IMG/VR virus record: IMGVR_UViG_3300020195_000110
Coordinates: 1-32,856 of that record
Length of the DNA stretch: 32,856 nucleotides
Origin: a virus
Strand: one strand, 5' to 3'
In this document: positions 12,747 through 31,438 of the stretch, in pieces
Position numbering within the stretch: position 1 is the stretch's first letter
Layout: each line of letters starts with the position of its first letter
Made by a program: the position numbers and the translations under genes
The notes under the pieces: model-generated
What the model saw: the letters and a program-made list of their open reading frames with translations, nothing else
What the model was told of the DNA's origin: nothing
Database searches by the model: none

Positions 12747-13945
12747 TGGTAGGCTCATTTTTCCAAGGCCGCAGGCTCGCCGAGGCTGACCAGATCGCCA
12801 GGCGCGAAGCGGACCAGATCGCTACGGGGCGCGACGCCGCTCTGAAACGGCAGCCGATCCTCGACCAACAGGCCGACGCTGCCCGTGCGCTCGCTCTCGG
12901 CGACGAGCAGGTAGCTCGAGAAGACGCGGCGGCCAGGTCCAAGCGGGATGCGCGTCTGCGTGGCCTGATGACAGTCAAGGCCGGCATGACCAACGGCATG
13001 GACGTAGGCGACGCCCTACAGACCCTCGGTCCCGGCGGTCTCCGCGCATTCGGCGACGACTTCGGCGACATGGCCGGGTTCGCCAACGCGGTACGCCAGA
13101 ATCCCAAAGTTCTCGACGCCCAGATCGCCGGCCTATCAGGAAACGCGAGGGCGCGCGGCGTCAAGGCCGAGGAGTACGTGACCGGCCCTGACGGTAAGGA
13201 GGGCCTGCACGTCCTCTACGACGACGGAACAGACGCCTTCCTGCCGGGGTTCAAGAAGCAATTCTCCCCGACCGACGGCCCCAGCGTGGCGCAGGGCGCC
13301 GGCCTTCCCGGCACCGAGTACCGTCCTGGACAGGGATATTTCGACGGAGACGGCAACAAGCTGACGGCCGATCAGGTGCGGCAGTTGGCGTTCGACTTCA
13401 AAGCCTCTCAGGCTGCCGGCACGGCAGCGGGCAAAGAGGGCGCCAGCGAAGTCCCGTGGACCCAGGTGCAGGCGATCAACGCCAGGACCACGTTCGACAC
13501 GCTCTCGCTCAAGAACGAGAACCTTAACTCGGCGATCGACACCGCGCTGTCCAACGTCAACTGGGCCTCTGCCGGCCTTGTGGGCCAGCTCAAGGGTGTC
13601 GCCGGCGAGCCGGCGAACCTTGCGGCCATGCTCCAGTCTGTCGGCGCGCAGATCGGCCTCGACGAGCTTACGAAGCTAAAGCAGGCTGGCGTCACGCTGG
13701 GTCAGGTCACGGAGGCCGAGCACAAGCTGCTGCAATCCATGATCGCCGATCTGTCGCAGATAACCGACCCGAATGTGCTCCGCGCGGCGCTACAGAAGGT
13801 CAAGCAGCAGTCCAACAAGGCGTGGCGCATCACCCGCGACAACCTTACCGGGATCGCGCAGGCCAAGGGAGGCATGGGGCAGACCGGCGGTGACGCCCCC
13901 GCCGAGCCGTCCTCGCCCAAGAAGTCGTCAAAGTATTACGACTGA
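12746..13945 (+). CDS. Internal virion / DNA ejection protein 2
   Basis: The protein has 399 residues. The GTG at 12746 shares a base with the TAG of the previous gene, and AAGGGAG at 12732-12738 is well placed. Residues 1-70 are a charged helix (ADQIARREADQIATGRDAAL). The middle holds small Gly/Asp-rich turns (GPDGKEGLHVLYDDG, YFDGDGNKLTADQV). The C-terminal 150 residues are helical (ELTKLKQAGVTLGQV, KLLQSMIADLSQI, LRAALQKVKQQ), typical of podovirus internal proteins, then a Pro/Ser/Lys tail. There is no enzymatic motif. The function is inferred from order and helical content. Confidence 0.7.
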   Translation: MVGSFFQGRRLAEADQIARREADQIATGRDAALKRQPILDQQADAARALALGDEQVAREDAAARSKRDARLRGLMTVKAGMTNGMDVGDALQTLGPGGLRAFGDDFGDMAGFANAVRQNPKVLDAQIAGLSGNARARGVKAEEYVTGPDGKEGLHVLYDDGTDAFLPGFKKQFSPTDGPSVAQGAGLPGTEYRPGQGYFDGDGNKLTADQVRQLAFDFKASQAAGTAAGKEGASEVPWTQVQAINARTTFDTLSLKNENLNSAIDTALSNVNWASAGLVGQLKGVAGEPANLAAMLQSVGAQIGLDELTKLKQAGVTLGQVTEAEHKLLQSMIADLSQITDPNVLRAALQKVKQQSNKAWRITRDNLTGIAQAKGGMGQTGGDAPAEPSSPKKSSKYYD

Positions 13946-16152
13946 TGCCAACCTGGGAGCAGCACCAGCGGGCACTAGGCAAGGCTCGCGCGGCGGGCGA
14001 CGCCGAAGCCGTGGCCGAGATCGAGGCAAACATTGCCGAAGCCACACAGAATGTATCGCCTTCGGGCGGCGAAACTCAGTACGACAAGGCGCGCTTCCAG
14101 AAGGCGCTGGGACGCGCCATGGAGGCCAGGGACGTCGAGGCTGCCGATGAGATTGCGAACGACTGGATGGACGCCGCAGAGGCCGCCGGCGGGCGCTCTC
14201 CGCGCCAGTACAGCGACGACGAGCTACGTGAGTCAGGCGGCAAGGCCGCGCAGGCTCGGGACATGGAGAGCCTCACCCTCCTGTCCGCGGAGGCCAAGCG
14301 CCGCGGGCTCGGGCCGACGGGTCCTCTCGACGACGTCTCCAAGATGGTCGGCGACACGGTCGACGCCGTAGTCGGCCTCCCCGGAGCCTTGGCCAAGGGC
14401 GCCGATGCGACTGTCCGCGACCCTGTCAGGGCCGTGCACACATTGATACGCAACGTCCCCGCAGCCGACTTCGTGCACACCGGCACCGGCCACATCGTGA
14501 ACTTCCTGAAGGGCGACGAGTTCAACCCCCAACTCTTGCAGCAGACCCGCGACGAGGCTGCGGCCATGGCGCAGGAGAACCCTCTGGCGGCGCTGTTAGG
14601 CGGAGGCCTTGGCGCAGGCGTTGTAGCCAATAAGCTACTCAAAGTACCCGGCCTGGCCGCGGTCCCCGGCCAGACGCTGCGCAACGTGGGCCGCGTGGCG
14701 GCGACCGGCGGCGCTACCGAGGCTATCGTCTCGCTGGCTGACACAGGAGATGCCGGGCAGGCCGTGCAGCGCGCAGTATCCGGCGCTGTCCTCGCCCCTA
14801 TCGTCGGCGCTGTGGCCAAGACAGCAATCAGCCTCGTGGGAGCGCCGTCTGTCCGCATGGCGACGGGCAAGACGTACCCCTCCGGGTTCAAGAAGCTCGC
14901 CCAGATTGTCAAGATGCCCCAGAGCGCGCTGGAGAAGGCGTTCAACGACCTGAAAGCGGTGCGCGGCGGTAACCCCAGCGTCGCCGAGATTGTGGACACC
15001 GCGACGAAGCAGCGCCTACAGCCGGTCATCGCGACCCAAGCCAAGGTGGCTGCGGCTGCCCAGAAGGCGGCGGAGGACGCGGAGCTTGCGCGGCCGACAC
15101 GTGGACAGAAGCAGGTTAACCCGACGGGCAGGTCGGACGCTTCCGCGGCTGCCGAGGTTGCGCGAACCAGGAACCTCACAGCGGCGCTCAACACGCACGG
15201 TAAGCGCCCCGTCGTGATCGACGCGCCTGAGTGGTTCGACCGCCCGGCCATCCGCTCGGAACTCAAGAGGCAGATGGAGAACGCGGCGCCGAACTCTCCC
15301 GAGAAGCAGGTCCTCAGCGGCTTCCTACAGGCTCTCGAGGGTAACCGCGGCGCCATCACGGCGACCCTGCGTGACGTGGAGGCGCTGCGTAAGACGGTGG
15401 CCGACATCCTCGCCACGGAGAAGGGCGCCCAGCTAACCGGCTCTCTCGGCCCTGTGCGCGACAAGCTGGCGTCGATCGCCGAGACGCAAATCCCCGAGTA
15501 CGGCGCGGCCATGGCTGCGTACAAGAGCCTTGGCGACAAGGCGCAGGGTATCGACATCGGCAAGGCGGCAGTCGACGGCTCCAGGAGCGAGACGAAGGCC
15601 GCGCTCATCCCGAAGCCCAAGACGGACGTGGCGGCCCTGCGTGACGGCGCTGCCGGCGGGTTCAGGACCAAGCTGTCGGAAGATGTCGGCAAGTCGTTCG
15701 GCAACTCCGGCCGCAAAATGGAGCAGCTCCAGAACCCCGAGTTCCAGAACAGGGCCGCGGAACTTCTCGGCCCCGCCGAGGCTGCGCGTCTCGCAACCGT
15801 GGGCAAGCTGGAAGGACAGGCGGCCCGGAACCTGGACGACCTCGACCCGGCCCCGAACCCGCGCGCCTCGAGACCGAACGACAACCTTTCCGACGTGGTC
15901 GGGGGCGTGTCAGCGCTGGGGCCGTCCGGTGCGGGACACAAGGCCGCCGTGGTGCTGTCTCTGCGCCAGCGGCTCACCAAGTCCGGCATGTCGGATCGCG
16001 CGGCAACGGGGATTTCCGAGGCGCTGTTCGACCCGGCGCGGGCGCAGCAAGCGATCGACACTCTGCGCCGCATCGGCAAGGACCAGGAAGTAGCCACGTT
16101 CCTCGCGCAGCAGATCGCAACAATCCAAGCTGGTACACAGGGCAACGAATGA
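13945..16152 (+). CDS. Internal virion / DNA ejection protein 3 (large)
   Basis: The protein has 735 residues and starts at ATG overlapping the previous TGA. Three related ~22-residue helical repeats open it (near 9-30, 53-74 and 98-118), each with an A-x2-A-x-D-x-E-A-like core. Hydrophobic stretches at about 212-245 and 278-300 (AVLAPIVGAVAKTAISLV) could insert in the cell membrane during ejection. The rest is Ala-rich helix without a recognised catalytic site; I saw no lytic transglycosylase motif. Size and order fit the largest ejection protein of a P22-like set. Its stop overlaps the holin-like gene (ATGA). Packaging of its products in the capsid is inferred. Confidence 0.75.
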   Translation: MPTWEQHQRALGKARAAGDAEAVAEIEANIAEATQNVSPSGGETQYDKARFQKALGRAMEARDVEAADEIANDWMDAAEAAGGRSPRQYSDDELRESGGKAAQARDMESLTLLSAEAKRRGLGPTGPLDDVSKMVGDTVDAVVGLPGALAKGADATVRDPVRAVHTLIRNVPAADFVHTGTGHIVNFLKGDEFNPQLLQQTRDEAAAMAQENPLAALLGGGLGAGVVANKLLKVPGLAAVPGQTLRNVGRVAATGGATEAIVSLADTGDAGQAVQRAVSGAVLAPIVGAVAKTAISLVGAPSVRMATGKTYPSGFKKLAQIVKMPQSALEKAFNDLKAVRGGNPSVAEIVDTATKQRLQPVIATQAKVAAAAQKAAEDAELARPTRGQKQVNPTGRSDASAAAEVARTRNLTAALNTHGKRPVVIDAPEWFDRPAIRSELKRQMENAAPNSPEKQVLSGFLQALEGNRGAITATLRDVEALRKTVADILATEKGAQLTGSLGPVRDKLASIAETQIPEYGAAMAAYKSLGDKAQGIDIGKAAVDGSRSETKAALIPKPKTDVAALRDGAAGGFRTKLSEDVGKSFGNSGRKMEQLQNPEFQNRAAELLGPAEAARLATVGKLEGQAARNLDDLDPAPNPRASRPNDNLSDVVGGVSALGPSGAGHKAAVVLSLRQRLTKSGMSDRAATGISEALFDPARAQQAIDTLRRIGKDQEVATFLAQQIATIQAGTQGNE

Positions 16153-16403
16153 TAGGCGAGCCGGGACTTACCACGGCGCAGGTCGCTACCTACGGAGGTG
16201 GCAGCTCGGCTGTTTTCTTTGGGCTCACGGCCAACGAGACGGCCGCGGCTGTTGGCGCGATCGTTGCAGTAATCGGCCTGGTGATGCAGTGCTGGTACAC
16301 GCTTGACAAAAGAGCGCGTGCCGTTGAGATGCATCGGGCGGAGTTGGAGGCTCTGAGGAATGGCGGAAAGACTCTCGGACAAAGAGTGGGCGAGGACGCT
16401 TAA
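16149..16403 (+). CDS. Holin-like small membrane protein
   Basis: The protein has 84 residues. An N-terminal Gly/Ser segment with SSAVFFGLTANE leads to a membrane segment at about 34-50 (AAVGAIVAVIGLVMQCWY), then a charged Lys/Arg/Glu tail. GGSSxVFFGLTxxE followed by one hydrophobic helix and a basic tail is the pattern I recall for the HP1/class II-type holin families. Its expected job is to permeabilise the inner membrane at the end of infection. It overlaps the ejection gene by 4 bases and the next gene by 44 bases. No endolysin gene was recognised beside it. Confidence 0.7.
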   Translation: MIGEPGLTTAQVATYGGGSSAVFFGLTANETAAAVGAIVAVIGLVMQCWYTLDKRARAVEMHRAELEALRNGGKTLGQRVGEDA

Positions 16404-18141
16404 AGCGCTCGCCAGGCACAACGGCCACCAGAGAAGCGCTGCCAAGGACCTCGGGATAGGGCGGCCGGCAATCGCCTCCCGCATTCTCAACGCCAGAGCG
16501 CGCGGCCTCGAGGTCCCGGTGTACGAGCGCATCGCAGGCGGCCCCAGGCTCTCTGCGGGCAAGGTGGCGGAAGCTGTGGCCGCCTTGGAGGCCCACGGGG
16601 GCCACAAGACAAACGCTGCGCGTAGCCTCGGGTTGCACCGGAACTCGTTCGCCAGCCGCCTATCCACGGCTGAGCTACGCGACGACTGGATTCCGCAGGG
16701 CCGCGCCAGAGCGCTCACGCCTGTCAAGATGCCTCTGCCGACGGGAAACAAGGTCGCCCGATACGTCCTGACCTGTGCTCAATCTGGGACGAAACTTCAT
16801 GAGCCAACCTGGACCGCCCTCAACGCCCTCGCCAGGCACTACGGCGCAAAAACGCTCGTCAGCACATTCAGCTACGCGCATCGGCAAGAGGGCTCTGCGA
16901 AACGCGGAACGCAAGGCGGCGATCGCGGCGTCGACTGGTACGACCCGCGAATCGAGCCTCATGTGTCCGACGACATGGTTGCTCTCGCTCCCAGCCTGAT
17001 TTGGAACGGCCACATGAACATCCTGCCCACGGCGGTCGATCCGCTGTCGGGCATGTCCAACTACAACGGACGCGCAAGCTCCATCTTCCCACACGTCAAG
17101 GTCGCCATGGTGTCCGTCCCGACGATGGCCGGCAGCGCGGCGAAGCTCCAGTATACCACGGGCACGGCGACCCAGCTTAACTACATCGCCAAGAAAGCCG
17201 GGCAGAAGGCCGAGTTCGACCACGTGTTCGGCGGCCTCATTGTCGAGGTGAACTCGGACGGCGCGTGGTGGGTCCGCCAGCTCCACGTGGACAGCAAGGG
17301 GCGTTTGTACGACCTGGACCTGTGCGTGATGCCCGACGGGGTCGTCGCCCCCGGCATCGGCGCCTCGGTGGTGGTCTTCGGAGACCTGCACGACGCCCAG
17401 CTCGCCGACACGACGCGCGCGGAGAAGTGGGGCAGTAAAGGCATGGTCGCAGCGCTGCGGCCAGCCGTGCAGATTGCACACGACATATTAGATTTCCAGA
17501 GTAGATCGCACCACGCCCGCAAAGACCCTCACGCCATGTTCGAGCTTCACGCCCGAGGCAAGGAGAACATACAGGACGAGGTGAAGGGCGTTGGGGCGCT
17601 ACTTAAGCTGATGGCGCAGCACTCCAAGGTGATCGTCGTCAACTCGAACCACGACCGCCACCTCGAGCGCTGGCTCAAAGAGGCCGACTGGCGCACAGAC
17701 CCTGTGAACGCGGAGTTCTACGTCGCCTGTCAGGCCGCGTTTCTCGGCGCGATCCGTGCAGGCAAGAGATTCGACGCGCTCAAGTGGGCGGTAGACAAGT
17801 ACAACGCAGCAAAAGGAGTACGGTTCCTTGACCCCGGAGAGAGCTTTATTGTTTGTCGTGACGGTTCTGGTGGCGTTGAACTTGGCCTGCATGGTGATCT
17901 TGGTCCTGGCGGTTCTCGAGGCTCAATCCGAAATCTCAGCCGCATTGGGCGCAAGGTGGTTATCGGACACTCTCACAGCGCTGGGATTCACAACGGGGCA
18001 TACCAGGTAGGCGTGTCGGCGCGGCTGGATATGGAGTACGCCCGCGCGGCGCCGGGAGCGTGGTCGCACACCGACTGCGTGGTCTACCCGAACGGAAAGA
18101 GGGCGCTGCTGACGTGGTGGCGCGGAAAGTGGAGAGCGTAG
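16360..18141 (+). CDS. HTH plus metallophosphoesterase-fold phage protein
   Basis: The protein has 593 residues; the ATG at 16360 follows GGAGG at 16346-16350. Two Fis-like helix-turn-helix segments are visible at about 12-45 (HQRSAAKDLGIGRPAIASR) and 66-102 (HKTNAARSLGLHRNSFASR). A middle domain (about 131-330) has DPLSGM, TTGTATQLNYIAKKAG and AEFDHVFGGLIVEV, a set I recall from an uncharacterised phage family. From about 335 it reads as a calcineurin-like phosphoesterase: GDLHD (341-345), NSNHD (428-432, in place of GNHD), HGD (511-513) and GHSH (536-539). The substrate is unknown; DNA or a nucleotide is plausible given the HTH part. The G-to-S change before NHD is unusual. A hydrophobic ORF is nested in its last third (17828-18010). 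Confidence 0.8.
   Translation: MAERLSDKEWARTLKALARHNGHQRSAAKDLGIGRPAIASRILNARARGLEVPVYERIAGGPRLSAGKVAEAVAALEAHGGHKTNAARSLGLHRNSFASRLSTAELRDDWIPQGRARALTPVKMPLPTGNKVARYVLTCAQSGTKLHEPTWTALNALARHYGAKTLVSTFSYAHRQEGSAKRGTQGGDRGVDWYDPRIEPHVSDDMVALAPSLIWNGHMNILPTAVDPLSGMSNYNGRASSIFPHVKVAMVSVPTMAGSAAKLQYTTGTATQLNYIAKKAGQKAEFDHVFGGLIVEVNSDGAWWVRQLHVDSKGRLYDLDLCVMPDGVVAPGIGASVVVFGDLHDAQLADTTRAEKWGSKGMVAALRPAVQIAHDILDFQSRSHHARKDPHAMFELHARGKENIQDEVKGVGALLKLMAQHSKVIVVNSNHDRHLERWLKEADWRTDPVNAEFYVACQAAFLGAIRAGKRFDALKWAVDKYNAAKGVRFLDPGESFIVCRDGSGGVELGLHGDLGPGGSRGSIRNLSRIGRKVVIGHSHSAGIHNGAYQVGVSARLDMEYARAAPGAWSHTDCVVYPNGKRALLTWWRGKWRA
17828..18010 (+). CDS. Candidate nested small membrane protein
   Basis: This 60-residue frame lies inside the phosphoesterase gene. 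It would start at TTG 17828, with AAGGAG (17813-17818) nine bases upstream. The product has a clear membrane helix (FVVTVLVALNLACMVILVLA) followed by a helical tail (EAQSEISAALGARWLSDTL). In the host frame the site is spelled by codons aaa-gga-gta, unusual in this GC-rich genome. A holin, antiholin or other lysis regulator would fit the neighbourhood, but the role is unknown. Against it: a TTG start, and any frame in GC-rich DNA can look open. Confidence 0.4.
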   Translation: MTPERALLFVVTVLVALNLACMVILVLAVLEAQSEISAALGARWLSDTLTALGFTTGHTR

Positions 18142-21863: not shown

Positions 21864-22092
21864 AGCCAAGTCCCCTCAGAGTTTCGAGCCGCAGCATCTG
21901 TAGCGCGGTGGGCTTCTTGCCCTTCTGCTTCATCTCGACGAGCCAGACGCGCCCGCCGGAGATGTAGAACTTCAAGTCCGGGTAGCCGCTGGCCGCGCCG
22001 AGCCCTTTGTGGATGCGCTCCCACACGACACTCAGCCTGTCGGCCAGGGTGGTGAGCTGCTTTACCTCGTCGCGTTCTAGCCTTCGGCGCAT
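21523..22092 (-). CDS. VRR-NUC domain nuclease with long overprinted tail
   Basis: The protein has 189 residues from ATG 22092, preceded by AAGGGCGG. The VRR-NUC fold is in the first ~92 residues: GYPDL (36-40), VEMKQKGKK (52-60, the E-x-K pair) and ALQ (63-65), giving D39, E53 and K55 as likely catalytic residues. Such nucleases act on branched or structured DNA. The domain ends at about 21816, but no stop occurs in frame until 21523, so about 95 further residues are read in a frame different from the overlapping helicase (341 bases of overlap). That tail is Arg/Ala/Pro-rich and looks like a shadow frame. The start overlaps the upstream nuclease gene by 16 bases. Confidence 0.7.
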   Translation of the reverse strand: MRRRLERDEVKQLTTLADRLSVVWERIHKGLGAASGYPDLKFYISGGRVWLVEMKQKGKKPTALQMLRLETLRGLGYDADWFDNADEACEALSRRVGAVRGAARLRLSASDADAVRSLGRSGGRQDLYNSLGIRDTPTERLRAHYAGCGPAESLPAPVEAGGSPVVAVHAPQDRVPARAKERRDTPREG

Positions 22093-22793
22093 GGTCCGCC
22101 CTTGTGTTTCGACGACAGCGGGCAGTAGTTGCAGAACTTGTTGGGCCGGGGCGGGTAGATCGTGGCGCTCAGCATCTTCTGCGCCCGAGCCGTCCACTTG
22201 GACATCAGCTTGGGAGCCTCGGCGAGCTTGAAGCTGGCTGTTACCTCGAGGCCCGAGTCGAGATACCAGAGGCGCGTCTGCACCTCCGGCGCGCGGAACT
22301 TCTGGAACGCCGACACGCCGTAGAGTTCCATCTGGTCGTCGTTCTTGTCGTCGTACCGCTTCCCCGTCTTGAAGTCGACGATGTCCGCTGTTTTGTCTGG
22401 GTACACGATGCCCGCGTCCCACTCGAGGCGCATCCACACGTCCTTGTCGAACCAGCCGCCGCGGCGCACCTCCCAGCTCGGCGTGAACGTCATCTTCAGG
22501 TCGGCGTAGGCTCCGGCTTTCCGCATATAGGCCATGCCGTCCGCGAAGTGCTTGTAGTAGTCGGGGAGCGGTGAGCCTGGCATCTGTAAGTAATGCGCGC
22601 CGGCCCCGTGGACCTTGCGCCCCTTCAGCAGCGCGGGGGACGGCGGGTCAGGCCAGCCGAGAATGCGGACGGCGTAGAACCGCTGCGGGCAGTCCTCGTA
22701 GAACGCGACGGCGCTGGCGCTCCACGCCGTGACGGGCTTCACGGGCTTGCCGTCGTAGCGGTAGCCGGAAGGGGGGAGCTTGAGGAGGGTCAT
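22077..22793 (-). CDS. PD-(D/E)XK nuclease, RecB/Cas4-like
   Basis: The protein has 238 residues. ATG 22793 overlaps the stop of the small gene upstream (ATGA); a longer frame to 22865 has no support. The N-terminus SASAVAFYEDCPQRFYA is the typical opening of RecB/Cas4-family nucleases. The catalytic core reads D-AGIVYPDKTAD-IVDFKTGK (motif D-x-K), followed by Q-x3-YG. Four cysteines suit an iron-sulfur cluster of the Cas4/AddB type: one in the opening motif and three at the C-terminus (FCNYC, then GGPC). It is likely a 5'-3' or 3'-5' exonuclease acting in recombination or DNA end processing, together with the VRR-NUC protein and helicase that follow. Confidence 0.8.
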   Translation of the reverse strand: MTLLKLPPSGYRYDGKPVKPVTAWSASAVAFYEDCPQRFYAVRILGWPDPPSPALLKGRKVHGAGAHYLQMPGSPLPDYYKHFADGMAYMRKAGAYADLKMTFTPSWEVRRGGWFDKDVWMRLEWDAGIVYPDKTADIVDFKTGKRYDDKNDDQMELYGVSAFQKFRAPEVQTRLWYLDSGLEVTASFKLAEAPKLMSKWTARAQKMLSATIYPPRPNKFCNYCPLSSKHKGGPCAEG

Positions 22794-22978
22794 CCGAGGA
22801 AGGGCTCCGGTATGCCGTGTTGGGCGGCGAGTTTCTGGGCGTCTTCGTATAGGGCTTTGGCCCACACAGAACGTTTGAAATCTTCAAACGACGCGCTCTT
22901 ATTTTTCATGCGGACACTCTCGGCGATCATGCGGAACCGCGCCCTCTCGCGGGCTTTCCAGACTTGATGGCGGGTCAC
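22790..22978 (-). CDS. Small basic helical protein
   Basis: The protein has 62 residues. It starts at GTG 22978, coupled to the preceding small ORF by a GTGA overlap, and ends in an ATGA overlap with the RecB/Cas4-like nuclease gene. It is rich in Lys/Arg (WKARERARFRMIAESVRM, DFKRSVWAKALYEDA) and is probably a nucleic-acid or protein-binding helix bundle. I recognise no family. Tight coupling suggests a partner of the nuclease. Confidence 0.6.
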   Translation of the reverse strand: MTRHQVWKARERARFRMIAESVRMKNKSASFEDFKRSVWAKALYEDAQKLAAQHGIPEPFLG

Positions 22979-23121
22979 GGCGGGCTCTCTCCTCTAACGT
23001 TCATCCACAGCAAGTGGCACGCCAGCCGGTCCCAGCTCCAGTCCTCAAACCCAGGCCGCGCCTTGAGACGCAGCAGCGCGGAGTTCCACCACTCCCAGAA
23101 GATTTGGAACTCGGGGGTCAT
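22975..23121 (-). CDS. 48-residue Trp-rich small protein
   Basis: ATG 23121 overlaps the methyltransferase stop (ATGA), and its TGA overlaps the next GTG (GTGA). The product begins MTPEFQIFWEWWNSALLRL and has seven Trp residues in 48. There is no recognised family and no clear membrane segment. Start and stop overlaps on both sides make it likely to be translated as a link in the operon. Confidence 0.55.
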   Translation of the reverse strand: MTPEFQIFWEWWNSALLRLKARPGFEDWSWDRLACHLLWMNVRGESPP

Positions 23122-24086
23122 GGACAGCACTCCATGAAGGCCTCTACGAAGCCTTGCGCTTGCGAAGCGTCGAGGGCGTTTCCGTAGGCACGCAGTCGTC
23201 CCACTCGCGCGGTATCCTCATGAGCCAGCGGGAATGTCCCGCTCTCAACCGGCCGATACTTCCCGTCTCGGCAGGGGAGCCAGTCAACCGAGCCTGTTTG
23301 TCCAGGTGGACGTTCCCGCCGCCCTGTGTCTCCGTCGTCCGCCCGCCCGATCCGTCCGTCGCTTTCGGCGTGGCCCATCCCACCAACCAGGCTTGGCGCC
23401 CCAACAGGCCGTTCACCGGCACCGTACCCACCGAGTCGCCGTCCTTGTGGTCCCGCGTCGTCGGCGTAGCCCAGCCGCACAAACTCGCGTCGTGGCTCAG
23501 TGCCCCGACCGCCTGATTCGGACCTCCGTTCGCCCCGTCCGTTGCCCGCGGCGTGTTCCAACCTTTTTGCTCCCCAGTAGAGGCGCTGTCTGATGTGGAA
23601 CCCTTCGTCGCCTTCCTCGGAGGCGAAGCCCGCAGCGCAGGTATCGACCGCCCCGACGGCATAGCCCTCTGCTTCCAGGTCAGCCTGTACACCCTCGAGC
23701 CAACCGAGGCCGTCAGGCGACGCAACCTGCTCGCCAAGGACACCGTCAGGACGGCAGACGCGGATGAGATGGTGGAACGCTGGCCATAGGTGCCGCTCGT
23801 CAGCAACCCCAGCTCTTTTGCCTGCCGCGGAGAAAGGTTGGCAAGGACAGCTTCCGGTCCAGATAGGCCGCTCATCAGGCACGCCAGCTCTGCGGAGGGT
23901 GTGAGACCATATCCCGATTCCGGCGAAGAAATGTGCCTGCGTAAATCCAAGTAGGTCTGTTCCGCGGACATCCTCTATACTCCTCGTGTCGACCTCGCCC
24001 GGCGCGATGTGGCCGGCGGCGATCAGGTTACGCAGCCACTGTGCGGCGAACTCGTCGTGCTCGTTGTAATACGCCGCTATTCGCAC
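23118..24086 (-). CDS. C5-cytosine DNA methyltransferase
   Basis: The protein has 322 residues. The GTG at 24086 follows GGAG at eight bases and gives MRIAAYYNEHDEFAAQWL, the start I recall for this phage family. Motifs: FAGIG (54-58, AdoMet), TGSCPCQPFSAAGK (78-90, with catalytic Cys82 in PCQ), GEQV (119-121, where ENV is usual), RQRLYW (motif VIII), and RLRAYGNAL near the C-terminus. It would methylate cytosine in a specific sequence, most likely protecting phage DNA from host restriction; no partner endonuclease is visible. The target-recognition part (about 185-270) is Gly/Arg-rich. A second long ORF in another frame occupies 23144-23971. It overlaps the polymerase stop by 10 bases. Confidence 0.85.
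   Translation of the reverse strand: MRIAAYYNEHDEFAAQWLRNLIAAGHIAPGEVDTRSIEDVRGTDLLGFTQAHFFAGIGIWSHTLRRAGVPDERPIWTGSCPCQPFSAAGKRAGVADERHLWPAFHHLIRVCRPDGVLGEQVASPDGLGWLEGVQADLEAEGYAVGAVDTCAAGFASEEGDEGFHIRQRLYWGAKRLEHAAGNGRGERRSESGGRGTEPRREFVRLGYADDAGPQGRRLGGYGAGERPVGAPSLVGGMGHAESDGRIGRADDGDTGRRERPPGQTGSVDWLPCRDGKYRPVESGTFPLAHEDTARVGRLRAYGNALDASQAQGFVEAFMECCP
23144..23971 (-). CDS. Overprinted protein within the methyltransferase gene
   Basis: The frame has 275 codons on the same strand, offset by one base from the methyltransferase. ATG 23971 has GAGGAG (minus strand of 23980-23985) eight bases upstream. The product does not look like a random shadow: it has RVYRLTWKQRAMPSGR, then repeated W-x-TP-x-D-x-G units (WNTPRATDGANGG, WATPTTRDHKDGDS, WATPKATDGSGG), NGLLGRQAWL, and HSRWLMRIPREWDDC near the end. 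I recall this set of motifs from uncharacterised phage proteins encoded next to or over cytosine methyltransferases. In the methyltransferase frame the ribosome site uses agg-agt-ata, rare codons here, which suggests the site is selected. The function is unknown. Confidence 0.6.
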   Translation of the reverse strand: MSAEQTYLDLRRHISSPESGYGLTPSAELACLMSGLSGPEAVLANLSPRQAKELGLLTSGTYGQRSTISSASAVLTVSLASRLRRLTASVGSRVYRLTWKQRAMPSGRSIPALRASPPRKATKGSTSDSASTGEQKGWNTPRATDGANGGPNQAVGALSHDASLCGWATPTTRDHKDGDSVGTVPVNGLLGRQAWLVGWATPKATDGSGGRTTETQGGGNVHLDKQARLTGSPAETGSIGRLRAGHSRWLMRIPREWDDCVPTETPSTLRKRKAS

Positions 24087-25969
24087 TTCACCAACTCCCC
24101 CCACGACCGGCCCTGCTTGCCGTCGCTACGCATGGGAACCGAGAGGCGATCGACCTCCATGATCTCGCGCAACAGCGCCATCTGGGCGTCCGCCTTGTCC
24201 TCCGGCGCCGACACGTTGATCTCGTCGTAGACCTGGACGAGAAAGCGCGCCTCGCGGTCAGGGTGCTCGAACCACTCGACGCACGCCTGTTTCGTCAGGT
24301 CCGCGGCGCCGCCCTGCACCAGCGTGTTGAGGCCTCGGTACTCGTAGGTCGTGTAGCGACCCTGCTTCTTGTCGAACCCCGGAGCCTGGCAGTAGTTCAC
24401 CCGGCCGCCCAGTGTGACGATGGGCTCCCCGCGCTTGAACGTCCGTTTGATCTCCCCCTCGAGCGCAGTCTTACCCGGCAGCGCCGACTCGTGGACCCTC
24501 CTAAGCTCCTTGGCCTCGCTCGCCGTTATCTCCAGAGCCTTGGAAAGCGCCGGAACGCCGCCGCCATATAAGCCCTGAAAGTTGAGAACCTTGATAGTGG
24601 TCTTGTCGAACGATCGACCTGCGGCAGCCTCCATAATTGGCCTGACCCACTCGTCATGGGGGTCGAGCATGGGGCTCCGGCAGTAGGCGTCGTTGAGAGG
24701 GCCGCACTCATGGTGGGCAAACACACGCAGCTCTTGTCCCTTAAAGTCACGATGTAGGAAGCGGTGCCCCACATCGGGCAGAACATATTTCCGCACAAGC
24801 GGCAGATTAGGTAGCCCGAGGAACTCAGGGTGAACATATCCGTCTTTCTTGCTCTCGAAATCTTTCGACAGGTTCAGGAAGTTGTGGCTGTTGCACGAAG
24901 GACGCCCGGTGCGCGTGCCGCCTCCCTCGCCTCGGGTCTGGTTCCAGTTGGTGTGGATTGTCCCGCCGGTCTTCTGGGCCTGCTCAAGCCACGGCGCCAT
25001 GAACATGGTCAGGCACGTCTTGAGCCGGTTGCGGTAGCCCAGCGCCGACGCCACGTCGGGGTCGTTGAACATGTGCGCGCGTAGGTTGGCCTTGCTGACG
25101 CTGCGCTGTCCGCTTTCCGTCAGAACCCACTTGTCGTCGTCGACGATACCGCCACGGGACAGGGCTTCCGCCACCTCCTCGTCCGCGTCGAAATTGATCT
25201 CCGGGGTTCCGAGGCGCTGCTTGAGAGCGGCCTCAACTGTCAGAAGGGCGCCTGCGTAATTCTGACAGTCTGTGTCCAGCTTATCGACGTCTACGCGCAT
25301 CCCCAGTCGTTCGTTTTCCATGCACACTTGCAGGAACCGGCGTTCTCGGTCATACGCCTGGCCCATGCCGGCGGCGAGGACTTTGGGGTGCAGGTGCTCG
25401 AACAGGCGGAAGGTGCGCTCGACGTCGCCGATGGCGTAGGGGGCCAGTACCGCGGCGGGGACTTTCGAGAACCAGCGCCAGACATTGTTGACCTTGCCCT
25501 TGGTGCGGCTGATGTCCTCGCCGGGGTAGGCCTCGCGCAGCGCCTTGCGGTGCTCCCATACCCAGTCGCTGACCGCGTCGCGCTCCTCGGGAGGAAGCCC
25601 AAGGATCGCTTCGGCCGCCCGCTTAAGATCGAGGGCCTGGCGGTTCGGATCGTCGAGGAACATCAGGAGCATTGTGTCGTGCTGGCGGCGCCACGGGATA
25701 AGGGGCAGCCCAGCGCCCTCGGTGGCCATCTGGAGGTCGAACTTTATGTTGTGGCATAGGATGGGCCTCCCACTGTCCCAGGCCCACCTGAGCACGCTCA
25801 GGGCGTCCTGGTAGGTGGCGTTGTTGCCGGAGGGATGGCCGAACGCGAGGTACCGCGACGCGTTGTAGCCGTCCTTCACAGCGAGCCCGATGGGTCGCGG
25901 TGGGAAGTTGGGACGCGCCTCTATCGGATGCGACTCCCAGTCGAGCGTTATGACGTCGGCGGCGCGCAT
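24077..25969 (-). CDS. Family A DNA polymerase with 3'-5' exonuclease
   Basis: The protein has 630 residues. Exonuclease motifs: DWE (10-12), CHNIKFD (72-78) and YAIGD (178-182), so proofreading looks intact. Polymerase motifs: TGRPSCNSHNFLNL (about 354-367), motif A DFKGQELR (408-415, usual form DYSQIELR), motif B around KTTIKVLNFQGLYGG (456-470) and motif C VYDE (580-583). Tyr replaces the usual His of motif C. There is no 5'-3' exonuclease domain. It would replicate the phage genome with the primase-helicase encoded upstream. The ATG at 25969 has a weak ribosome site. A 64-base A/T-richer gap separates it from the GapR-like gene. Its stop overlaps the methyltransferase start. Confidence 0.9.
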   Translation of the reverse strand: MRAADVITLDWESHPIEARPNFPPRPIGLAVKDGYNASRYLAFGHPSGNNATYQDALSVLRWAWDSGRPILCHNIKFDLQMATEGAGLPLIPWRRQHDTMLLMFLDDPNRQALDLKRAAEAILGLPPEERDAVSDWVWEHRKALREAYPGEDISRTKGKVNNVWRWFSKVPAAVLAPYAIGDVERTFRLFEHLHPKVLAAGMGQAYDRERRFLQVCMENERLGMRVDVDKLDTDCQNYAGALLTVEAALKQRLGTPEINFDADEEVAEALSRGGIVDDDKWVLTESGQRSVSKANLRAHMFNDPDVASALGYRNRLKTCLTMFMAPWLEQAQKTGGTIHTNWNQTRGEGGGTRTGRPSCNSHNFLNLSKDFESKKDGYVHPEFLGLPNLPLVRKYVLPDVGHRFLHRDFKGQELRVFAHHECGPLNDAYCRSPMLDPHDEWVRPIMEAAAGRSFDKTTIKVLNFQGLYGGGVPALSKALEITASEAKELRRVHESALPGKTALEGEIKRTFKRGEPIVTLGGRVNYCQAPGFDKKQGRYTTYEYRGLNTLVQGGAADLTKQACVEWFEHPDREARFLVQVYDEINVSAPEDKADAQMALLREIMEVDRLSVPMRSDGKQGRSWGELVKCE

Positions 25970-30968: not shown

Positions 30969-31102
30969 CGGGTAGCGTCCTCTATTTCGTCAATTACGTA
31001 AGCGTACAGCGTCTCGACCTCTCGCGCCAGTAGGTCGCCCGCCCGGATCAGCGCGACGGCGCCCAGCGCGATCGTGAGGGCAACGGCGACTAGCGCGCGC
31101 AC
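30965..31102 (-). CDS. 45-residue single-span membrane protein
   Basis: GTG 31102 has GAAGGA at six bases. The product starts MRALVAVALTIALGAVALIR (one membrane helix) and has an acidic tail (YVIDEIEDATR). Too short for family recognition. It is inside a run of overlapping small ORFs. Confidence 0.5.
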   Translation of the reverse strand: MRALVAVALTIALGAVALIRAGDLLAREVETLYAYVIDEIEDATR

Positions 31103-31167
31103 GCCTTATCCTTCTTTTCCGCATCCTCAAGGGCGCGCATAAGCAACCATTCCGCTTGCATGGTCAC
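31090..31167 (-). CDS. 25-residue charged micro-ORF
   Basis: GTG 31167 has GGAGGA nine bases upstream, the strongest ribosome site in this group. The peptide starts MTMQAEWLLMRALEDAEKKD. It overlaps the next start by 13 bases and heads the run of small ORFs. Confidence 0.45.
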   Translation of the reverse strand: MTMQAEWLLMRALEDAEKKDKACAR

Positions 31168-31231
31168 GTTAAGGAATCCTCCAAAAGTTAACTTGTGGTC
31201 GGTGTCGTGTTACGCGCCGAGGCGCGAGGGG

Positions 31232-31438
31232 CTAGGCCTCCTCGCCCACGGCATGCCGGGTAGGGTATGCCCGCACAACCACGACCGCGACGGGCCGGCA
31301 CCCCATAAGCTCAAGGTGTGCCGCCTCCTGATATGTGAAGGTGCAGGCGCTAAGCGACAGGCTGCCGACTGCGTCGGGGTATGGCGCCGGCGTGAGGAAC
31401 CCGGCTTCGTTTATCGCAGCTTTGAAATATAGTTTCAT
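31232..31438 (-). CDS. Small hypothetical protein, 68 residues
   Basis: ATG 31438 has GAGG eight bases upstream. The sequence (MKLYFKAAINEAGFLTPAP, then EAAHLELMGCRPVAVVVVR) is beta-rich without signal or membrane segment. No family recognised. It lies between the repeat protein and the small-ORF run. A short GC hairpin (31213-31226) follows its stop without a T-run. Confidence 0.5.
   Translation of the reverse strand: MKLYFKAAINEAGFLTPAPYPDAVGSLSLSACTFTYQEAAHLELMGCRPVAVVVVRAYPTRHAVGEEA

Follow-up and report, generated by a model that had tools for sequence, protein, structure and literature searches.

The two-polypeptide C5 cytosine methyltransferases (MTases) provide the closest described parallel to the arrangement reported here. 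M.EcoHK31I (YGGCCR) has its small gene lying inside the large one, in a different frame, and a second chain of about 176 amino acids. The larger chain of this enzyme contains motifs I–VIII and X, while motif IX is found alone on the smaller polypeptide (PMC3404938), and the title of a 1995 paper cited in the same source states that two proteins are needed for methylation in vitro. In M.AquI, a two-subunit C5 MTase, the catalytic motifs lie on one chain, and the other carries motif IX together with the last part of the variable region (PMC3404938); the small chain also bears motif X, and that source gives no account of one M.AquI gene nested whole within the other. A different kind of overlap is represented by the ShiLan-type phage methylases, where a second protein is likewise found in another frame of the methylase gene, in that case a mobile HNH gene inserted in it (PMC11855218).

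The locus described here belongs to a virus record whose full length of 32,856 nucleotides (32.9 kb) constitutes the window. A C5 cytosine MTase gene, flanked by two other genes, lies on its minus strand, and most of it is shared with a second gene in the +1 frame, hereafter the overprint. The features are listed below in window coordinates.

22077–22865: PD-(D/E)XK exonuclease gene, neighbour of the MTase gene on one side
24077–25969: family A DNA polymerase gene, neighbour of the MTase gene on the other side
23118–24086, minus strand: C5 cytosine MTase gene (PF00145, 1e-7; phrog_363, 1e-67), with motifs I, IV, VI, VIII and X and without motif IX
23829–23846, minus strand: MTase motif IV (PCQPFS), from the translation and PF00145
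23574–23597, minus strand: MTase motif VIII (HIRQRLYW), from the translation and profile alignment
23172–23201, minus strand: MTase motif X (GRLRAYGNAL), starting where the motif IX-like element of the overprint stops
23980–23985, minus strand: Shine-Dalgarno sequence GAGGAG, 8 bases ahead of the overprint ATG, within the MTase Arg-Ser codons agg-agt
23144–23971, minus strand: overprint, 275 codons from an ATG in the +1 frame of the MTase, of the phrog_1008/phrog_31772 family; its open frame is kept in relatives found through the MTase, apart from shifts at the edges
23840–23971, minus strand: overprint residues 1–44, a leader without constraint, covering MTase motif I and reaching motif IV
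23597–23839, minus strand: overprint residues 45–125, conserved N domain (NLSxRQAK...GSxxYxLTWK...LRAS); four-fold identity mostly 0.64–0.85, with 0 stops against 60 expected
23549–23560, minus strand: first W-x-TP repeat, overprint residues 138–141; four-fold identity peak 0.75
23462–23473, minus strand: second W-x-TP repeat, residues 167–170; peak 0.75
23366–23377, minus strand: third W-x-TP repeat, residues 199–202; peak 0.79
23201–23248, minus strand: motif IX-like end, residues 242–257; four-fold identity 0.77–0.86, the family profile aligning best with C5 motif IX

The outer frame is assigned to the C5 cytosine MTases by Pfam (PF00145, 32.1 bits against a cut-off of 22) and by the motifs I, IV, VI, VIII and X that can be read in its translation. 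The MTase likely starts at the GTG at 24086, the open reading frame itself (23118–24104) opening at a further GTG at 24104; depending on which of these is counted as the start, the overprint spans 84–85% of the MTase, close to the 85% proposed in an earlier note made from the sequence of this DNA alone. That note had singled out the 275-codon frame within the MTase gene, and the frame proves to be real. The ribosome site it placed eight bases from the ATG, under the host codons agg-agt-ata (R-S-I), is found as described, and the internal W-x-TP repeats it mentioned number three, beginning at residues 138, 167 and 199. The predicted isoelectric points of the two products are 10.3 for the overprint and 5.7 for the MTase; the high value of the former agrees with its being a second MTase chain, yet could stem from the frame alone.

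Likened by its published description, M.EcoHK31I resembles the gene in the window in that the MTase chain there, too, carries motifs I–VIII and X without motif IX. Unlike the window gene, M.EcoHK31I is a restriction-modification enzyme rather than a phage gene, and its second chain is smaller; its large chain also reportedly holds a predicted TRD, whereas the TRD-like region of the MTase frame described here is poorly conserved. The presence of motif X on the small chain of M.AquI separates that enzyme from the typical overprint, and is shared with a single exceptional locus (L342) considered below. In contrast to the ShiLan type, the window MTase contains no insert and shows no HNH match: the overprint has no hit in Pfam, and conserved MTase motifs lie within the overlap. 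The same overprint does occur in phage K1ind1 (GenBank GU196279), where ORF28, a ‘Mte8-like protein’, lies within ORF29, a C-specific methylase; this is a record name only, and no paper on the overlap or function of the protein was found.

Taken by itself, the window gives modest evidence for the second frame, with 0 stops in the overprint span against a mean of 3.48 expected from 20,000 synonymous codon shuffles of the MTase (P = 0.0074); what settles the matter is comparison with relatives. A set of 42 non-redundant MTases, the window included, was found by MTase sequence alone, and the span was set by the MTase alignment; in this set the +1 frame contains 11 stops against 177.1 expected, all of them near the span ends and none in the core, while the +2 frame, serving as a control, contains 543 against 507 expected. 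Stops in this frame among close relatives, which the earlier note had said would refute its proposal, were looked for in this way, and the finding stands. Every one of 80 MTase relatives found using the MTase sequence only also has the overprint. Searches with the overprint itself by tblastn returned matches in 156 phage records, 134 of which extend across at least 80% of its length. In all of the 312 loci compared, the overprint is present in an identical register, the MTase frame being the one that is broken in a few. Phages of other groups and one plasmid, at 46–60% GC, have no +1 stops where 3.2–8.4 are expected, the largest expectation (8.4) belonging to the phage of 46% GC. Conventional C5 MTases from the same host genomes lack the overprint and carry +1 stops at the expected number.

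Selection on the product was gauged from the identity of MTase four-fold third bases across 84 diverse genes. Identity in codons that serve the MTase only is 0.32–0.37, and overprint residues 1–44, at 0.33–0.36, do not depart from this baseline. It then rises to 0.69 at residues 45–54, stands at 0.46 at 55–64 and reaches 0.64–0.85 at 65–124; beyond these, three isolated peaks fall exactly on the W-x-TP repeats, and a last block of 0.63–0.86 covers residues 225–264 before identity drops back to 0.34 past the end of the overprint. Excess constraint at MTase-silent positions, as called for by the earlier note, is found in most of the conserved overprint blocks from codon 45 onward and not in codons 1–44. 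Shared ancestry accounts for part of this conservation, although none is seen in the baseline stretches of these genes. Compared with its nearest relative (L070), the window differs at 0.15–0.26 of MTase four-fold sites in overprint codons 45–275 and at 0.80 in codons 1–44, the corresponding values in the polymerase gene and the downstream exonuclease gene being 0.59 and 0.38. Within the repeat region, differences at the first, second and third MTase codon positions are 0.37, 0.07 and 0.15, so it is the overprint frame, and not the MTase frame, that is constrained there.

At several sites the overprint residue is almost invariant although the MTase residue is free to vary, with identities of 0.95 against 0.29 at P254, 1.00 against 0.50 at L250 and 1.00 against 0.48 at L79. 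Shared ancestry inflates the z-scores of overprint identity relative to synonymous shuffles, as the +2 control is high as well, and such columns and the four-fold sites are relied upon instead. Judged from these comparisons, the overprint is beyond doubt a real, conserved second protein-coding frame. Its repeat number ranges from 1 to 7 across 378 distinct homologues. AlphaFold models of the overprint are poor (pLDDT 61 and 60), a helix at residues 70–89 and a β hairpin at 96–116 being the most confident part; with these low-confidence models, Foldseek and VIA-align gave nothing above background and matched no known structure, and sequence searches of solved structures found no relative.

The canonical single-chain enzyme places motif IX between the variable region and motif X on the same chain, a layout that the MTase frame does not follow. 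When 84 of these MTases were aligned by hhalign with 16 conventional C5 MTases, motifs I–VIII were covered (98% probability) and motif X weakly, whereas motif IX had no counterpart in the profile alignment and the motif IX model scored the MTase frame at control level. The most conserved part of the overprint, LNPx5LMGxPxxW, aligns best with this very motif (LTPRECARLQGFPxxF/W). Four overprint alignments, drawn from overlapping sets and so not independent, each score on motif IX above all 150 of their column shuffles; the hhalign E-values against one target are 0.007–0.1, weak because the motif is short. When 351 overprints were scored with the motif IX model, 263 exceeded a low threshold of −2, 250 of them at the LNPx5LMGxPxxW element, compared with 15–26 that pass among the MTase-frame, +2, antisense and shuffled controls. 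The family consensus of this end is LNPxxSRWLMGxPxEW; the copy in the window has diverged (LRAGHSRWLMRIPREW), having lost the LNP and the G of LMG, and is without a match to the model. Opposite it, the MTase frame retains a conserved segment, CRDGKWRPVEPGTFPL, and given this conservation the MTase frame may have a recognition element of its own.

From these features, the MTase gene probably encodes two proteins, each from its own start, of which the overprint would be a companion chain that carries motif IX and, probably, a portion of the domain that reads the DNA. Ribosomes starting at the MTase GTG would make the C5 methyltransferase chain, with motifs I–VIII and X, and those starting at the internal ATG, after the Shine-Dalgarno sequence in the Arg-Ser codons, would read the +1 frame. 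The predicted product of the latter is a basic protein of 275 residues, comprising the conserved N domain, a variable W-x-TP array and a C-terminal motif IX-like helix. Both chains probably assemble into one working MTase, to which the MTase frame would contribute the catalytic domain and the overprint motif IX along with, probably, part of the small (DNA-recognition) domain. By analogy with other C5 MTases, the repeat array appears to stand where their variable recognition domains lie. We infer translation of the overprint in vivo, its physical partnership with the MTase, its need for methylation and its role in target recognition. The overprint is read as a second MTase chain because motif IX stands alone on the small polypeptide of M.EcoHK31I, and because the exceptional locus L342 reproduces the chain split of M.AquI, with motifs IX and X on the small subunit. 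In L342, which represents one phage with two identical contigs, the MTase frame stops after motif VIII and has 4 stops within the overlap, and an uninterrupted overprint frame is joined, in frame, to motif X (RIKALGNAVVP).

Of the functional pairings suggested in the earlier note, a specificity or structural partner of the MTase offers the best reading, in view of the motif IX-like end, the lack of motif IX in the MTase frame, the variable repeats at the TRD position and the failure to find a free-standing copy; an inhibitor or anti-restriction factor is unsupported, with evidence found neither for it nor against it, Pfam, NCBIfam and PADLOC giving no match of that kind. The overprint might nevertheless be a genuine protein that merely resides in the MTase gene and has a function of its own, such as anti-restriction, MTase inhibition or another early phage function. 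This is an appreciable though minor possibility. The coding evidence is neutral on function, pairings of MTases with counter-defence functions are common among phage genes, and two loci (L154 and L471) keep the overprint despite a stop in the MTase frame. Against an independent job stand the location of the motif IX-like end in the right place, the failure to find any copy without a surrounding MTase or a clear remnant of one in phages and plasmids whose hosts differ widely, and the lack of a match to defence or counter-defence families, the last an absence only.

With the companion-chain reading still preferred, the manner in which the overprint is started bears on two further alternatives. 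Among relatives that have an ATG at this position of the MTase, 36 of 53 loci write the MTase Arg-Ser pair with GGAG, compared with 2 of 18 where the ATG is absent and with 14% predicted from codon usage; a ribosome site belonging to the overprint itself, as the earlier note had supposed, is supported by this pattern. The local RNA structure around the start is not unusual. Stops directly upstream of the ATG are not depleted (47 against 42 expected), whereas residues 2–44 contain 4 against 22.5 expected. Since this depletion begins at the ATG, residues 1–44 are probably translated with little sequence information, and as they show no excess constraint, the open frame there is, on the sequence comparisons, a leader only. 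The abrupt onset of constraint at residue 45, opposite MTase motif IV and after an unconstrained stretch, would also suit an alternative MTase C-terminus reached by +1 frameshifting near the PCQPFS codons, rather than through an ATG of its own; frameshifting would need neither the conserved Shine-Dalgarno site tied to the ATG nor the stop depletion in residues 2–44, and is considered improbable. An internal start within the MTase message might also serve a regulatory purpose, with translation of the overprint tuning MTase synthesis and its product having no role, but the overprint is conserved at the amino-acid level between distant families, some of its residues being invariant at sites where the MTase is not, which makes this very improbable. 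A chance open frame in GC-rich DNA, allowed for by the window P of just 0.007, is rejected almost with certainty by the shuffles, the stop counts in relatives and in other-group phages and the plasmid, and the silent-site constraint in the MTase.

The distribution of the arrangement is broad and takes in phages or plasmids of several phyla. In the same register, it occurs in Proteobacteria, phages of Paenibacillus and Lacticaseibacillus, a Bacteroides plasmid and an Acidobacteria phage, and further in the T4-like Krischvirus, in N15 and in MTase genes on Acinetobacter, Nostoc and Methanomethylovorans plasmids. Those of Nostoc and Methanomethylovorans are ranked as probable, their open frame being shorter or interrupted near the gene start. 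Nearly every overprint inspected sits on an MTase with the register unchanged, and no free-standing homologue, which would show the older frame, was found in the viral, genome, plasmid and phage collections. One candidate annotated as a lone hypothetical protein (L627) was rejected as free-standing, since an MTase frame left out of the annotation overlaps it in the usual register. A search of E. coli genomes with one phage gene as the query matched 2 of 5,426, which is uninformative on prevalence. An overprint-like match of 65% identity also lies in a cytosine methylase at 31056–31316 of NC_023841.1, recorded as Dunaliella viridis virus SI2 with an algal host; the record may be that of a phage with the wrong host name.

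A more far-reaching version of the companion-chain reading is tentative. It would see a very old enzyme split over two frames of the same DNA, with catalysis in one and target recognition (the repeats and motif IX) in the other, near-universal in a large phage and plasmid class of C5 MTases from bacteria to archaea, and evolving its specificity by repeat gain and loss that is tolerated as a linker in the catalytic chain. The likely kind of enzyme, a two-chain C5 MTase with a separate motif IX, is known from few examples; what appears new in the sources searched is the nested, overprinted form with a repeat array, in a very large phage and plasmid class. No paper describing the overlap was found in the open-access library searched, and an earlier description may exist elsewhere. 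Should the partner role be true, a curiosity of one or two restriction-modification enzymes would become a general design, and long same-strand overprinting in phages would gain an example of uncommon age and spread.

Annotation has largely missed one half of these loci. Database records mostly show one frame, with both given in a few, K1ind1 and Arcticfreeze among them, and the overprint only in L627. For hundreds of ‘DNA cytosine methyltransferases’ of phages and plasmids, the annotation appears to cover just half of what the gene encodes, gene callers keeping one of the two proteins. In accordance with the earlier suggestion of an uncharacterised phage protein family, the overprint matches phrog_1008 (4e-21, residues 37–265) and phrog_31772 (6e-21, residues 135–274), as do all 39 members of one overprint alignment (A1), each matching both. 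The PHROGs v4 name of these two families, ‘DNA methyltransferase’, is misleading for the overprint, since the catalytic MTase chain matches another family, phrog_363; tools that use PHROG names will label the overprint a methyltransferase. No match to the overprint was obtained in Pfam, NCBIfam or PADLOC, including any defence or counter-defence family, searches that a new family would escape. In practical terms, recoding or truncating such an MTase gene for a heterologous test would remove the second protein, and the enzyme could be mistaken for an inactive one.

A number of loci vary the arrangement. The split of the MTase into a motif I–VIII chain and an overprint–motif X chain occurs at L342:2968–3801 and also in L481 and L482, and L154:2846–4058 has a stop in the MTase frame inside the overlap with the overprint intact. 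The MTase open reading frames of L036 (2380–3882), L019, L041 and L042 are about 500 codons long, and in them a stretch matching MTase residues 288–325 recurs approximately 420 bases downstream of the overprint end, a pattern that looks like an in-frame insert or duplication ahead of motif X. In L056, L151 (Pseudomonas phage PMG1) and L303, the N-terminus of the MTase, upstream of motif I, is in a different frame from the rest; the overprint is intact in all three, and in PMG1 it is the annotated gene. Elsewhere in the window, an 891-codon open frame on the minus strand (14076–16751) lies antisense to a 735-codon open reading frame at 13945–16152 and is probably a shadow frame of GC-rich DNA.
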